Part shown: in pieces, positions 16,416-29,841 of the stretch | Layout of the letters: each line of letters begins with the position of its first letter | Numbering within the stretch: position 1 is the first letter of the stretch | The notes under the pieces: generated by a model | What the model was told of the DNA's origin: nothing | Databases searched by the model: none | What the model saw: only the letters and a program-made list of their open reading frames with translations | Translations under genes and position numbers: made by a program | From: a virus | DNA length: 29,841 nt | Reading direction: 5' to 3' (one strand) | IMG/VR virus record: IMGVR_UViG_3300021347_000021 | Location: 1 to 29,841 of that record

Positions 16416-16746
16416 AGAAAATTTAAGAAGTTGGTCTAAAGGAGAATCTGGAAATCCTAAAGGTAGACCAAAAGGATCAAAGAATAGAAGTACAATAGTA
16501 CGTGAACTATTAGAAGTATTATTAAAGCGTAAGAATCCATTGACAGGCGAAGAAGAATGGATGTCAGCGGAACATCATATGACTATAGCAGTATTGCAGA
16601 AAGCTTTTGAGAAAGGTGATGTAAACGCATACAATGCTTTAATGAATTCAGGATATGGTTCACCCAAAGATACAGTAGATGTTAATACTACTGAAACAGT
16701 ATCACACGACTTTAAAAAGTTAGTTAGTGCAATTAAGTTTAAGTAG
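16405..16746 (+). CDS. terS: Terminase small subunit
   Basis: The protein has 113 residues. The N-terminus WSKGESGNPKGRPKGSKNRS is the Gly/Pro/Lys-rich element known from DUF5681-type terminase small subunits, and helical segments follow (TIVRELLEVLLKRKNP, then AEHHMTIAVLQKAFEKGDVN, AYNALMNSGYG). Small subunits bind the packaging site and stimulate the large subunit. It directly precedes and overlaps the large terminase by 20 bases, which fixes the assignment. Confidence 0.8.
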   Translation: MANEENLRSWSKGESGNPKGRPKGSKNRSTIVRELLEVLLKRKNPLTGEEEWMSAEHHMTIAVLQKAFEKGDVNAYNALMNSGYGSPKDTVDVNTTETVSHDFKKLVSAIKFK

Positions 16747-17989: not shown

Positions 17990-18634
17990 ATGGCTATTAA
18001 ACTAAACATACCAGAATCATTAAGTGAAATTACATTAGGCCAATACCAAGAGTGGTTAAGAATCACAGAGGGCAAAGAATTGAATAGTTTCTTTCAGCAG
18101 AAGATGATTGAAATATTTTGCAAATCAAGATTAATAGATACATTAAGAATGAAAGCAAAAGATATAAATGAAATCACACTTGGACTAAATAAAATATTTG
18201 AAGCTAAACCAACTTTAAAAACATTGTGTAAAATCAATGATAAAGAATTTGGCTTTATACCTAAGTTAGATGATATGTCATTTGGTGAATATATTGATTT
18301 AGATACATACTTGGCTGATTGGGAGAATATGCATTTAGCAATGGGTGTTTTGTTTAGGCCTGTTAAGTTTAAAAAGAATAATGAATACATTATTGAGAAA
18401 TACGAAACAGCAAGTAAATACGATATGAAGCAAATGCCATTAGATGTAGTAATGGGTTCATTGGTTTTTTTTTGGAATTTAAAAACCGAATTGTTGAAAC
18501 ATATAGCGAATTATTTGTCCAAACAGGAGGTCGTGAAGTTGCCACAACATCTGATAGCTTCGCTGCAAAATGGGGTTGGTTTCAATCCATTTACGGACTC
18601 AGTAATGGAAACATTAGAAACATACACGAAGTAA
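17990..18634 (+). CDS. Tail assembly chaperone, short (G-like) product
   Basis: The protein has 214 residues when translation stays in frame. It starts AIKLNIPESLSEITLGQYQE and includes DDMSFGEYIDLDTYLADWEN and KQMPLDVVMGSLVFFWNLKT. I recognise this layout from Bacteroidota phage tail chaperones, which coat the tape measure protein during tail assembly. The T9 run at 18465-18473, codons GTT TTT TTT TGG, is a -1 slippery site, and a frame with a clear second domain begins there. The gene lies just after the terminase, far from the tape measure gene, which is unusual. Confidence 0.75.
   Translation: MAIKLNIPESLSEITLGQYQEWLRITEGKELNSFFQQKMIEIFCKSRLIDTLRMKAKDINEITLGLNKIFEAKPTLKTLCKINDKEFGFIPKLDDMSFGEYIDLDTYLADWENMHLAMGVLFRPVKFKKNNEYIIEKYETASKYDMKQMPLDVVMGSLVFFWNLKTELLKHIANYLSKQEVVKLPQHLIASLQNGVGFNPFTDSVMETLETYTK
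18465..18473 (+). promoter_or_regulatory. -1 frameshift site (T9) in the tail assembly chaperone
   Basis: Nine T follow GG, with zero frame G-TT TTT TTT TGG, so tRNAs on TTT TTT can re-pair one base back and the next codon is TTG at 18472. RNA polymerase slippage on T9 is an alternative that would give the same product. The downstream frame is open for 86 codons after the shift. Confidence 0.8.
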
Positions 18635-18732
18635 CACAATTAAAGCTACATCAATGTTTGTATATGTTATCATTTGAAAAGGATAAAATGGAATTAGAAC
18701 AAAGTATACTTAAGAGAAATGCAAAGAAATGA
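18472..18732 (+). CDS. Tail assembly chaperone, frameshifted extension (GT-like)
   Basis: This frame is 86 codons long and has no ATG at its beginning; its first codon is TTG inside the T9 site. Joined to residues 1-161 of the upstream product it gives a protein of about 247 residues. The sequence FAAKWGWFQSIYGLSNGNIR followed by HEVTQLKLHQCLYMLSFEKD has the KWGWxxxIYxLxxG...E.T.LxLHxxLxxLxxxKDK pattern that I associate with the T domain, which binds the tail tube protein. Production of both short and long forms in a fixed ratio is the rule in siphophages. It overlaps the next gene by 14 bases. Confidence 0.78.
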   Translation: MEFKNRIVETYSELFVQTGGREVATTSDSFAAKWGWFQSIYGLSNGNIRNIHEVTQLKLHQCLYMLSFEKDKMELEQSILKRNAKK

Positions 18733-25385: not shown

Positions 25386-26006
25386 ATGGAAATAATAGAA
25401 CTTTTATTAGACGAAGAAAACGATAATGCTGGAATAGACGCAATTAGTATTGTATCATCACCAGCCATAGAAAGCAACTTTCTTTCTTTGAAATCTCAAG
25501 AAATCAAATTTGCAAAAGTAGATGATGAAAAACGCATCTTAATGGGTGCAGCATTAATACCTAACAAACCAATTTATAGAAAGGATGAAAAGAAAGAATA
25601 CTATGTATATTTTTCTGCTGATACAGTTAGAAAAGCAAGTGAATTATTCTTTATGAATGGAAATCAAAACAATACAACCTTAGAACACAATATGGAATTA
25701 AATGGTTTGACTGTTGTTGAATCTTGGATAGTTGAAGGCGAACAAGATAAAAGCAGAATGTATGATCTTGATGTGCCTGTTGGAACTTGGATGGTATCAA
25801 TGAAAGTAAATAATGATGAAGTGTGGAATGATTATGTTAAAGAAAACAAAGTAAAAGGTTTTAGTATTGAAGGTTACTTTGCCGACAAAGCAAACATAAA
25901 AGCAAGTGTAGAATCAGTTGTTGAAGAAGTAGATTTAAAAGAAGAAGAAGCAAATAAAAAAATAGAAGAAATTAGAAATCTATTTAAAAAAAAAAGCTTG
26001 ATTTAG
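25386..26006 (+). CDS. Prohead protease, XkdF-like (short product)
   Basis: The protein has 206 residues when read without a shift. The start EIIELLLDEENDNAGIDAIS and SIVSSPAIESNFL (about 21-33), a catalytic-type His101 in NTTLEHNMELNG, then VVESWIVEGEQDKSRMYD and GTWMVSMKVNNDEVW, and a Ser160 in KGFSIEGYF make the order of the XkdF / Peptidase_S78_2 serine proteases, which cut the scaffold during capsid maturation. The next domain (25994-26482) follows in the -1 frame after an A10 run. Its neighbours are the scaffold-like and major capsid genes. Confidence 0.8.
   Translation: MEIIELLLDEENDNAGIDAISIVSSPAIESNFLSLKSQEIKFAKVDDEKRILMGAALIPNKPIYRKDEKKEYYVYFSADTVRKASELFFMNGNQNNTTLEHNMELNGLTVVESWIVEGEQDKSRMYDLDVPVGTWMVSMKVNNDEVWNDYVKENKVKGFSIEGYFADKANIKASVESVVEEVDLKEEEANKKIEEIRNLFKKKSLI
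25986..25995 (+). promoter_or_regulatory. A10 frameshift or slippage site in the protease gene
   Basis: Ten A precede GCTTG. In zero frame the codons are TTT AAA AAA AAA AGC TTG ATT TAG. Slipping back one base gives AAG CTT GAT TTA GAA, entering an open frame that runs to 26482. A_AAA_AAG is the classic bacterial -1 signal, as in E. coli dnaX, and polymerase slippage on A10 is equally able to do it. A missing base in the assembly is the rival explanation. Confidence 0.65.
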
Positions 26007-26482
26007 AAAGTTATAGTGACTATCCAGATGCAGTTAGCAACAATGCTAAAAGGGGAATAGAACTAAATGAAAAGGTTAATAATAAATGTGCAACACAAGT
26101 AGGTAAAGTAAGGGCGCAACAATTAGCTAATAAAGAAAACATAAGTTTAGATACTATAAAAAGAATGTATAGCTACTTAAGCAGAGCAGAAACTTACTAC
26201 GATGAAAGCGATACTAAAGCGTGTGGAACAATATCCTATTTATTGTGGGGTGGCAAGGCTGGTTTAAGGTGGTCATTAAGCAAATTAAAAGAACTTGATG
26301 AAGTTAATTTAGAATCTATGGTAATAGATGAAGATTATGCAGTTATTGATGACCGTTTAGCATATAGTACACAAGCCAAAGCTGAAGAAATGGCAATTAA
26401 TATAGGTTGTAAAGGTTATCACACACACGAATTTGAAAATAAAACTTGGTATATGCCTTGTGAAAAACACATAAATAAATAG
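25994..26482 (+). CDS. YSDYP-domain extension of the prohead protease (-1 frame)
   Basis: From 25994 this frame reads KLDLESYSDYPDAVSNNAKR, then NEKVNNKCATQVGKVRAQQL and NISLDTIKRMYSYLSRAETY, TKACGTISYLLWGGKAGLRW, and a final segment with Cys and His. It is 162 codons long with no stop. The only ATG-based start is at 26165, in the middle of the conserved stretch, so it cannot begin there as an independent domain. I recall this YSDYPxAVxxNAKRxI...WGGxAGxxW domain fused to phage prohead proteases. The function of the domain is unknown. Joined to the protease it would give about 365 residues. Confidence 0.7.
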   Translation, partial: KLDLESYSDYPDAVSNNAKRGIELNEKVNNKCATQVGKVRAQQLANKENISLDTIKRMYSYLSRAETYYDESDTKACGTISYLLWGGKAGLRWSLSKLKELDEVNLESMVIDEDYAVIDDRLAYSTQAKAEEMAINIGCKGYHTHEFENKTWYMPCEKHINK

Positions 26483-26484
26483 AT

Positions 26485-26634
26485 ATGGGAAACAATAAAC
26501 TAAAAAGAGGTGAAAAAAGCAGAACATCGCCAAGAGGCGGTAGAAGGGGTTGCTTATGTAAAGATAATACATACAAAGTTAAATGCTGTGATGGCTCTTT
26601 AAGGGCTCAAGGCATAGGTAAAACACAAGCTTAA
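26485..26634 (+). CDS. Small Cys-rich basic protein
   Basis: The protein has 49 residues: GNNKLKRGEKSRTSPRGGRR then GCLCKDNTYKVKCCDGSLRA and QGIGKTQA. An Arg/Gly-rich N-terminus is followed by C-x-C....C-C-D-G-S-L. I recall similar RGCLCKDxTYxxxCCDGSLxAQGIG proteins from many Bacteroidota phages, with no known function. The four Cys could bind a zinc ion. It lies 2 bases after the protease extension and before the conserved A10 leader. Confidence 0.65.
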   Translation: MGNNKLKRGEKSRTSPRGGRRGCLCKDNTYKVKCCDGSLRAQGIGKTQA

Positions 26635-26702: not shown

Positions 26703-27350
26703 ATGAAAGCAAATGATATGTTAAACAAAATCAAAACCATTATTGGCGGAATTGAATTAACTGAAGAAGTTAAAGAAGTTCAATTAGCTGAAATGAAGCT
26801 TCAAAACGGAACAGTAGTTGAAGCAGAAGAATTTAAAGAAGGTGAAGCAATCTTTATTAAATCTGATGATGAAAGAATTGCAATGCCTGTTGGTGAATAT
26901 GTTCTTGAAGATGGTAAACTATTAGTAGTTGAAGAAGAAGGAATCATTGCAGATATGCGTGATGTTTCTGATGATGTACCAGCAAAAGAAGAAGCAAGTG
27001 AAGAAGAAGTAAAAGAGGAAATGGCTGAAGAAGAATTAGATGAAGAAGCTGCGGTTTACGATTGGGAAGGAATGGAAAAAAGAATTAAAAACCTTGAAGA
27101 TGCTATTGCTGATTTAAAAGCTGATAAAGTAGATGCACCTAAAGAAGTTGAAGCAACAGCAGAACTTTCTGAAGAGGTTAAAGAAGAAATTAAAGAAGAT
27201 GTAAATGAGGAAGTAGAACTTTCAGCAGTTGAAACTGTTGCTCCTGTAAAACACAATCCAGAAGCAAAGAATGAATCTAAATTTACATTAAAGAAAAATA
27301 ATTATCCTAAAACATTACAATCAAGGATATACGAAAAATTAAATAGTTAA
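26703..27350 (+). CDS. Acidic head protein, scaffold candidate
   Basis: The protein has 215 residues with an extreme Glu/Asp/Ala/Val composition. Residues about 1-85 look like a small folded domain (DMLNKIKTIIGGIELTEEVK, AIFIKSDDERIAMPVGEYVL). A long acidic helical part follows (DVPAKEEASEEEVKEEMAEE and a coiled-coil-like EGMEKRIKNLEDAIADLKAD). The last 30 residues are basic (KFTLKKNNYPKTLQSRIYEK), as in scaffold proteins whose tail binds the capsid. It lies between the protease and the major capsid gene, the usual scaffold place. A head decoration or internal protein is the alternative. Confidence 0.65.
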   Translation: MKANDMLNKIKTIIGGIELTEEVKEVQLAEMKLQNGTVVEAEEFKEGEAIFIKSDDERIAMPVGEYVLEDGKLLVVEEEGIIADMRDVSDDVPAKEEASEEEVKEEMAEEELDEEAAVYDWEGMEKRIKNLEDAIADLKADKVDAPKEVEATAELSEEVKEEIKEDVNEEVELSAVETVAPVKHNPEAKNESKFTLKKNNYPKTLQSRIYEKLNS

Positions 27351-29020: not shown

Positions 29021-29371
29021 ATGCAGATAATTACTAAAAGTGGAACAAGATTAATTAATTTTATGCCAAGAGAAACTATTGATAGCGGTAAAGTGTACGA
29101 ATTAAAAATAAAAAGCGAAGAACAGAATAAAATCATTTTAACTGATTCTAATGCATTATTTAATTCAGTTAAGTATTATTACACTTATAGCACAACTGAA
29201 GCTCTTACAGAGGCTAATTTCTACATTATAGAGATTAACAACACTACAGATGGAACTTTAATATTTAAAGATAAACTGTTTTGTACAAATCAAGATTTAT
29301 CAACTTTTGAAATTAGCAAAAATGTTTATATTGAAAAGTCAACAGGAAATAATGAATACATCTACGCATAA
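29021..29371 (+). CDS. Small beta-rich virion-region protein, unknown
   Basis: The protein has 116 residues and reads as beta-rich: MQIITKSGTRLINFMPRETI, SGKVYELKIKSEEQNKIILT, KYYYTYSTTEALTEANFYII, LIFKDKLFCTNQDLSTFEIS. I recall related proteins (F.PRE, YxLxIxSE, KDKxFCTNQ) in other Flavobacteriia phages at the same place between tail and portal genes. It has no known function. It lies behind a strong terminator and an A8 leader and is coupled to the portal gene as TAATG, so it starts the portal operon. A head decoration or neck role is possible. Confidence 0.65.
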   Translation: MQIITKSGTRLINFMPRETIDSGKVYELKIKSEEQNKIILTDSNALFNSVKYYYTYSTTEALTEANFYIIEINNTTDGTLIFKDKLFCTNQDLSTFEISKNVYIEKSTGNNEYIYA

Positions 29372-29841
29372 TGGATAACTTACATTTAATACAATTAAAC
29401 GAATATCAAAGGCCAGTAATCACTGAAGATAAAAACAGAGAGTGGATCGGTATTGGTGAAAATAATGATTACTATCAATGTTTGATAGATGCCTTTATGG
29501 ATTCAACTACTAATAATGCTGTAATTAATGGTATTGTTGATAGAATCTATGGTAAAGGTTTAGATGCTACTGATAGCCATAAAAAACCAGAGGAATACGC
29601 TAATATGAAATCAATCTTGAAAAAGAAAGATTTACGTAGGGTTTGCCAAGATTTAAAGTTATTAGGTGAAGGTGCATTTCAAGTTACATATCAAGGTAAA
29701 AAAATAAAAAGCATTACACATTTTCCAAGAGAAACTTTACGTGCTGAAAAATGCAATGAAGAAGGTGAAATTGAAGCTTATTTTTATAGTGCAGATTGGG
29801 AGAATGTAAACAGAAATACTAAATTAAAAAGATTTCCTGTT
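29371..29841 (+). CDS. Portal protein, N-terminal part (continues at base 1)
   Basis: ATG at 29371 overlaps the stop of the preceding gene as TAATG, which suggests translational coupling. The 157 codons read here contain a NAVINGIVDRIYGKGL stretch and then a KDLRRVCQDLKLLGEGAF stretch. This pattern of a short segment around a stem helix followed by 'cell/gene product processed or fed into a G-x-G/A-F strand' is what I associate with phage portal proteins of the SPP1/HK97 kind in Bacteroidota phages. The gene runs off the window and continues in frame at base 3. Portal is the best assignment because the window otherwise has capsid, protease, terminase and connector genes but no other portal-sized candidate. 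Confidence 0.75.
   Translation, partial: MDNLHLIQLNEYQRPVITEDKNREWIGIGENNDYYQCLIDAFMDSTTNNAVINGIVDRIYGKGLDATDSHKKPEEYANMKSILKKKDLRRVCQDLKLLGEGAFQVTYQGKKIKSITHFPRETLRAEKCNEEGEIEAYFYSADWENVNRNTKLKRFPV
29702..29841. repeat. Terminal direct repeat, right copy
   Basis: This is the partner of bases 1-140, with one mismatch (T at 29715 for A at 14). The difference falls in the third position of an Ile codon and is silent. Confidence 0.95.

Follow-up and report, generated by a model that had tools for sequence, protein, structure and literature searches.

A conserved A10 run as a candidate slippage site between a phage prohead protease and a YSDYP domain module

The stretch of DNA analysed here (the window) is a 29,841-base virus record, IMG/VR IMGVR_UViG_3300021347_000021, positions 1 to 29,841. 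Within it, the gene of a prohead protease closes just after a run of ten A's, and a second reading frame, displaced by -1, continues from the same run. The features of this locus, all on the plus strand, are the following.

25386-26006 (+): open reading frame of an XkdF-like prohead protease, 0 frame, 206 aa, ending NLFKKKSLI-stop just after the A run; matches Peptidase_S78_2.
25986-25995 (+): candidate A10 slippage run, exactly ten A's, at a length peak and conserved in relatives.
26004-26006 (+): TAG stop of the 0 frame; in the domain frame these bases fall within TTA-GAA (Leu-Glu).
25994-26482 (+): open stretch of the -1 frame, 162 codons and a stop (26480-26482), with no start of its own near the joint.
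26003-26293 (+): YSDYP core of about 97 residues, conserved in 49 aligned members; the model is mainly helical (pLDDT 83) and there is no named family.
26363-26470 (+): DUF3721 tail (Pfam E 5.9e-9, 35.9 bits against a cut-off of 27).
25996-26489 (+): block missing from a close relative (L434), whose protease ends NLFK-stop.

At the joint the -1 frame reads AAG (25994-25996), then CTT GAT TTA GAA AGT TAT AGT GAC TAT CCA, and its first listed ATG is at 26165. The coordinates agree with the preliminary description, in which the protease frame stopped after A10 with KKKSLI and the -1 frame ran on for 162 codons without a start near the joint. Rarity of long A runs as such was ruled out as a peculiarity of this DNA, as nine-mers from runs of nine or more (A9+) on both strands number 12, with 12.9 expected. 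What is unusual about the run is its position, its relation to the two frames and its conservation in relatives, not its mere presence.

The XkdF-like identity proposed earlier for the upstream gene is borne out by the Peptidase_S78_2 match (Pfam E 8.8e-18, 65 bits against a curated cut-off of 24). In the downstream part, the DUF3721 match covers residues 121-156 and lies above the curated Pfam cut-off, and the YSDYP core matched no family in Pfam or NCBIfam. A structure model of the fused protein from a close relative (L001, pLDDT 72) had no PDB match with E <= 0.001; the model of the domain alone had no Foldseek match at E <= 0.001, and its best VIA matches (Z 4.2) were to unrelated proteins. 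A weak Csm2 match given by PADLOC (E 0.009) was taken as chance. Searches of cultured phages with three domain queries matched 49, 29 and 19 phage records, all at less than 60% identity. In four isolate regions (L531-L534) the YSDYP domain occurs on protease, capsid-annotated, coil-containing and hypothetical proteins; isolate carriers include the prohead protease of HGTV-1, a capsid-annotated protein of Roseobacter CRP-821, a coil-containing protein of Vibrio 1.122.A and a portal-annotated protein of HRTV-28.

In the window a terminase gene lies at 16727, a tape measure gene precedes the protease and a portal-like gene lies at 29371. Two genes behind the protease match phrog_24921 and phrog_11320, both of no assigned function, and their scaffold- and capsid-like identity is our reading. 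Positions 205-317 of phrog_24921 are matched by the acidic protein encoded at 26703-27350, and positions 10-173 of the same phrog by the protease; the protease and this probable scaffold thus seem to be fused in other phages. In one relative (L355, about 2400-2800) a stretch resembling DUF3721 stands before the A run and not after the YSDYP part, an arrangement noticed by eye in which the modules appear to be shuffled. The relative that lacks block 25996-26489 has a protease 95% identical to that of the window, its NLFK-stop overlaps the next gene, and judged by its sequence it is a natural protease-only form. Positions 1-140 and 29700-29841 of the window encode the same peptide stretch; hence the record probably represents a genome that is circular or terminally redundant and was cut within the portal-like gene.

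Among the best 80 loci matched by the domain, the nearest relatives (L001-L012, 89-98% identical) are fused in frame across A9-A11. Three others (L014, L016 and L017) are split by -1 at A9 or A10 in the same place, and most of the remainder are fused and lack the run. Because the nearest relatives are fused, the split in the window may be recent, one A having been lost. Set against relatives with A11 plus G, such as L002, it resembles such a loss, and the window alone would therefore not prove programming. The related loci are all uncultured contigs, mutually related and many of them from shared lineages.

Four sets of loci were collected by domain similarity, a method that takes no account of the run, although three of their queries came from split A-run phages; together they comprise 320 loci, with some contigs repeated. 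A run of A9+ lies at the joint in 33 of them, 23 fused, 7 split by -1 and 3 at a contig edge; the other loci include 166 fused ones, 109 that lack a protease in front and 10 at an edge. Splits without an A run occur twice in these sets (L245 and L270), both with an in-frame ATG at the joint. No split was seen in the 80 loci of a protease-queried set, where 12 are fused with A9+, 55 fused without it, 12 without the domain and 1 at an edge.

A frame-blind pattern scan for A9+ followed within 20 bases by LE codons and a YSDYP-like motif gave 112 stretches, which were classified with home-made profiles; the clusters used below are home-made too. Junctions were counted as distinct by 60 bases on each side, and edge and unclear cases were dropped by length limits. 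The frame runs through in 71 of the 93 classified distinct junctions and is broken in 22, by -1 in 21 and by +1 in 1; since the splits stem from the domain-queried sets and the pattern scan, 22/93 overstates their share among all such phages. All 22 broken distinct junctions lack an ATG at the joint. For comparison, 15 further A9+ coding runs of these loci were classified, and 14 of them are intact, the remaining one being an ordinary gene start with ATG. The sole +1 split (L165) may be a recombinant: its domain belongs to clade D, its protease is distant (dS 0.9). In another locus, split by -1 at A10 (L100), the domain is cut by a second break. A tree of 227 rows requires at least 17 changes of the split state and 13 of A9+ presence. 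The preliminary description expected a programmed site to recur in related genomes as A9-A11 with split frames, and regarded homologues that were all uninterrupted and without a run as evidence to the contrary. A9-A11 is found at the joint in many lineages, fused or split, and both splits and runs recur.

The length of the run departs from what is found elsewhere in the same DNA. Distinct junction runs followed by G are distributed as A7 11, A8 8, A9 12, A10 53 and A11 13, whereas the counts for other coding runs of these loci that precede a G drop steeply with length (A5 887, A6 348, A7 101, A8 18, A9 1, A10 0, A11 2). A10 thus accounts for 53 of the 97 junction runs of seven or more and for none of 122 elsewhere in genes of the same contigs. 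By domain cluster, 18 of 24 reach A9+ at the joint and 6 have only A7. Lysine triplets are encoded by an unbroken A9+ in 11 of 13 cases at the joint and in 3 of 73 elsewhere (Fisher 1e-9; one locus was counted per cluster, L355 contributing two stretches). The run is conserved in homologues beyond chance, and by these comparisons it looks selected.

The downstream half of split genes appears to be maintained as well. In the clades in which all members examined are split, omega of the domain is 0.06-0.13 (clade C), 0.04-0.27 (clade E) and 0-0.04 (clade D without L165); some counts are small, the most divergent pair of clade C differing by 16.5 silent and 6.5 replacement changes. These clades stay split over silent distances of about 0.2-0.3, and whole split clades come from separate samples. 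Purifying selection on both frames was found in the split clades C, D and E, the window's near relatives being fused. On this evidence the startless downstream halves are under purifying selection and behave as expressed.

A further sign lies in the frame that is not used. In 58 of 66 fused loci with A9+, a stop closes the -1 frame within four codons, compared with 32 of 138 at the comparable place in fused loci without the run. Counted by cluster, this holds for 18 of 20 fused clusters; 462 in-frame AAAAAA sites in other parts of these loci give an expectation of 7.6, and none of 100,000 simulations reached 18. Shuffling of synonymous codons gave 11.2 such stops on average with 17.3 observed (P 1e-4); the excess of +1 stops was weaker (15.4 against 12.9, P 0.05), and stops of the +1 frame are also enriched in fused clusters (0.77 against 0.40). 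Among 25 split loci, 24 have a 0-frame stop no more than four codons past the run. The prompt stops in the alternative frame, in fused and split genes alike, suggest that either state is organised to give two products, the protease by itself and the protease with the module.

We therefore consider it likely that the A10 run is a selected slippage site joining the prohead protease to the YSDYP(-DUF3721) module, so that two proteins would be obtained from one gene. Comparison among loci supports this in several ways: the run is conserved at its place and commoner than the background, the splits go in the -1 direction, both halves are under purifying selection, and protease-only relatives exist. 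Slippage would occur either by RNA polymerase adding or dropping an A, which is the more likely, or possibly by the ribosome shifting by -1. From the split gene the short product would be the protease alone, read in the 0 frame to KKKSLI-stop, and the long product would be the protease fused to the module (FKKKKLDLESYSDYP...). The original proposal, slippage that joins the protease to the YSDYP domain, gains from the recurrent -1 splits, the selected run, the purifying selection and the prompt stops, but has to be reversed for most run-bearing relatives, which are fused (71/93). In these the -1 frame closes immediately, so that the protease alone would be the second product of the same run. 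We infer that both proteins are made, at some level of slippage, and in the prohead the module would then be carried in by a fraction of the protease. With a confidence just short of even, we further suggest that the switch is indifferent to frame: selection would keep the run near ten and the alternative frame closed rather than keep the frame itself, either DNA state would lead to the same pair of proteins, one-base indels would be nearly neutral, and only a fraction of the prohead protease would be loaded with the YSDYP cargo module.

Further upstream, the sequence GGTTTTTTTTTGG (T9) at 18464-18475 lies near the end of an open reading frame (17990-18634) that overlaps a second one in another frame (18472-18732). 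The frame 17990-18634 matches only phrog_32199, which has no assigned function, and about 30 related loci show the same -1 split at T9 as the window. The site resembles a tail assembly chaperone frameshift.

As to how the two products would arise, programmed ribosomal -1 frameshifting on A AAA AAA or A AAA AAG would give the same pair, and it is a reading to be taken seriously, although we judge it somewhat doubtful. The strong -1 bias of the splits (21 to 1) is compatible with a ribosome, and the -1 split at T9, in the gene placed like a tail chaperone upstream in roughly 30 of the same loci, points the same way. A ribosome, however, would need no more than seven A's, and A7 joints are fused in 10 of 10 cases with a long upstream frame, while A10 is favoured. 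Shine-Dalgarno-like sites are scarce among cluster representatives (1 of 9 split, 2 of 20 fused), and no consistent downstream structure was found in them (mean z -0.87 and -0.38). The enrichment of +1 stops is what a mixture of transcript lengths would lead one to expect. We give a slight preference to transcriptional slippage because of these observations on sites and structure, the A7 joints, the run lengths of nine or more and the stops in both alternative frames. The A_AAA_AAG-type slippage put forward earlier is accordingly retained as a slippery run at the joint, but it need not be ribosomal, as A9-A11 without other signals fits RNA polymerase at least equally well. That the module is translated by itself, by reinitiation or from a non-canonical start at the joint, is very improbable. 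The downstream frame is open slightly upstream of the run, and the hosts may have start rules of their own; on the other side stand the missing ATG at all 22 broken distinct junctions, the ATG present in both splits that lack a run and the fact that fused homologues are the rule. An own start for the domain was rejected, with no start near the joint.

Two further explanations place the change in the DNA or in its reading. Two loci that are 99.956% identical over 6751 bases, one split at A9 (L179) and one fused at A10 (L104), differ by two mismatches and a single gap, which is the junction A run. The pair fits error or hypermutation at the run, and implies that the site mutates or is misread easily, so that phase variation and noise stay rivals. 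Phase variation, in which slippage of DNA polymerase toggles the module between phage generations as in bacterial contingency loci, would account for such near-identical phages in both states and for the many state changes on the tree; we regard it as unlikely, for clades C, D and E remain split with the domain still under purifying selection, and the domain must therefore be read in the split state. Moreover, indels in both directions would be expected, whereas the splits are almost all -1. It does not exclude slippage in expression, with which it is compatible. Homopolymer noise, meaning sequencing errors or recent one-base deletions that break a continuous frame, or decay of a dispensable tail, seems to us quite unlikely. 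It agrees with the fused state of the window's nearest relatives, with the L179/L104 pair and with the complete absence of the module from 12 of 80 loci, and a deletion bias alone would yield -1 splits. Other A9+ coding runs in the same loci are nevertheless unbroken (0 of 14 without ATG), clades from separate samples share the split, and the startless half is under strong purifying selection; a fragile linker also leaves unexplained the A10 length peak and the closed -1 frame of the fused phages.

Slippage on A runs and head proteins with frameshift-made extensions are already known in kind. Slippage of RNA polymerase has been described on runs from about nine upwards (PMC1088944, PMC3711429), and runs of A8-A10, varying in length, join two frames in transposases of insertion sequences (PMC1088944); these transposases resemble the present case in the A run that joins two frames, but they are not capsid genes. 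Nine split dnaX genes with ten A's have also been described (PMC3711429). In dnaX (Thermus thermophilus, A9-A10; Bacteroidetes/Chlorobi-type split), as here, A10 joins frames by -1 and a short and a long protein result. There, however, the gene is that of a cellular polymerase, whereas the candidate phage device concerns a capsid protease and a module, and the DNA alternates between fused and split. A search of 84,980 species genomes with the junction pattern matched only dnaX, in a Flavobacteriales assembly with an A10 -1 split (L514, 7200-8000, minus strand), which is a classical example of this type of site. Frameshifting gives a head protein with and without a C-terminal module in T3, Lactobacillus phage A2 and Listeria phage PSA (PMC5009743); the two forms and the C-terminal module are shared, but those are coat proteins, not a maturation protease, and the shifts are ribosomal with other signals. 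The tail assembly chaperone pair gpG/gpGT likewise consists of two forms made from a phage morphogenesis gene by a conserved -1 frameshift (PMC3483164, PMC5009743), but from a tail gene, with a low ribosomal shift and usually without a long A run. Within the accessible parts of the literature, including PMC3483164, PMC5506516, PMC3711429, PMC5009743, PMC10885494 and PMC1088944 and mostly outside subscription papers, no description of a prohead protease frameshift was found. The unusual part is the alternation of fused and split genes around a nearly fixed run length.

Annotation pipelines would label such genes as broken or as separate, and the signature seen here is general: a length peak, fused/split alternation and an alternative frame that stops promptly could serve to reveal other such sites. 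The candidate device occurs in phages of many aquatic metagenomes. Pairs of proteins made by frameshifting in phage heads are known for coat proteins; if a maturation protease also came in two forms, stoichiometry within the prohead would be under a further control. Several head proteins of isolates, annotated as protease, portal or capsid, carry the YSDYP module, a domain without a name, and its metering by some phages would give a handle on its role.
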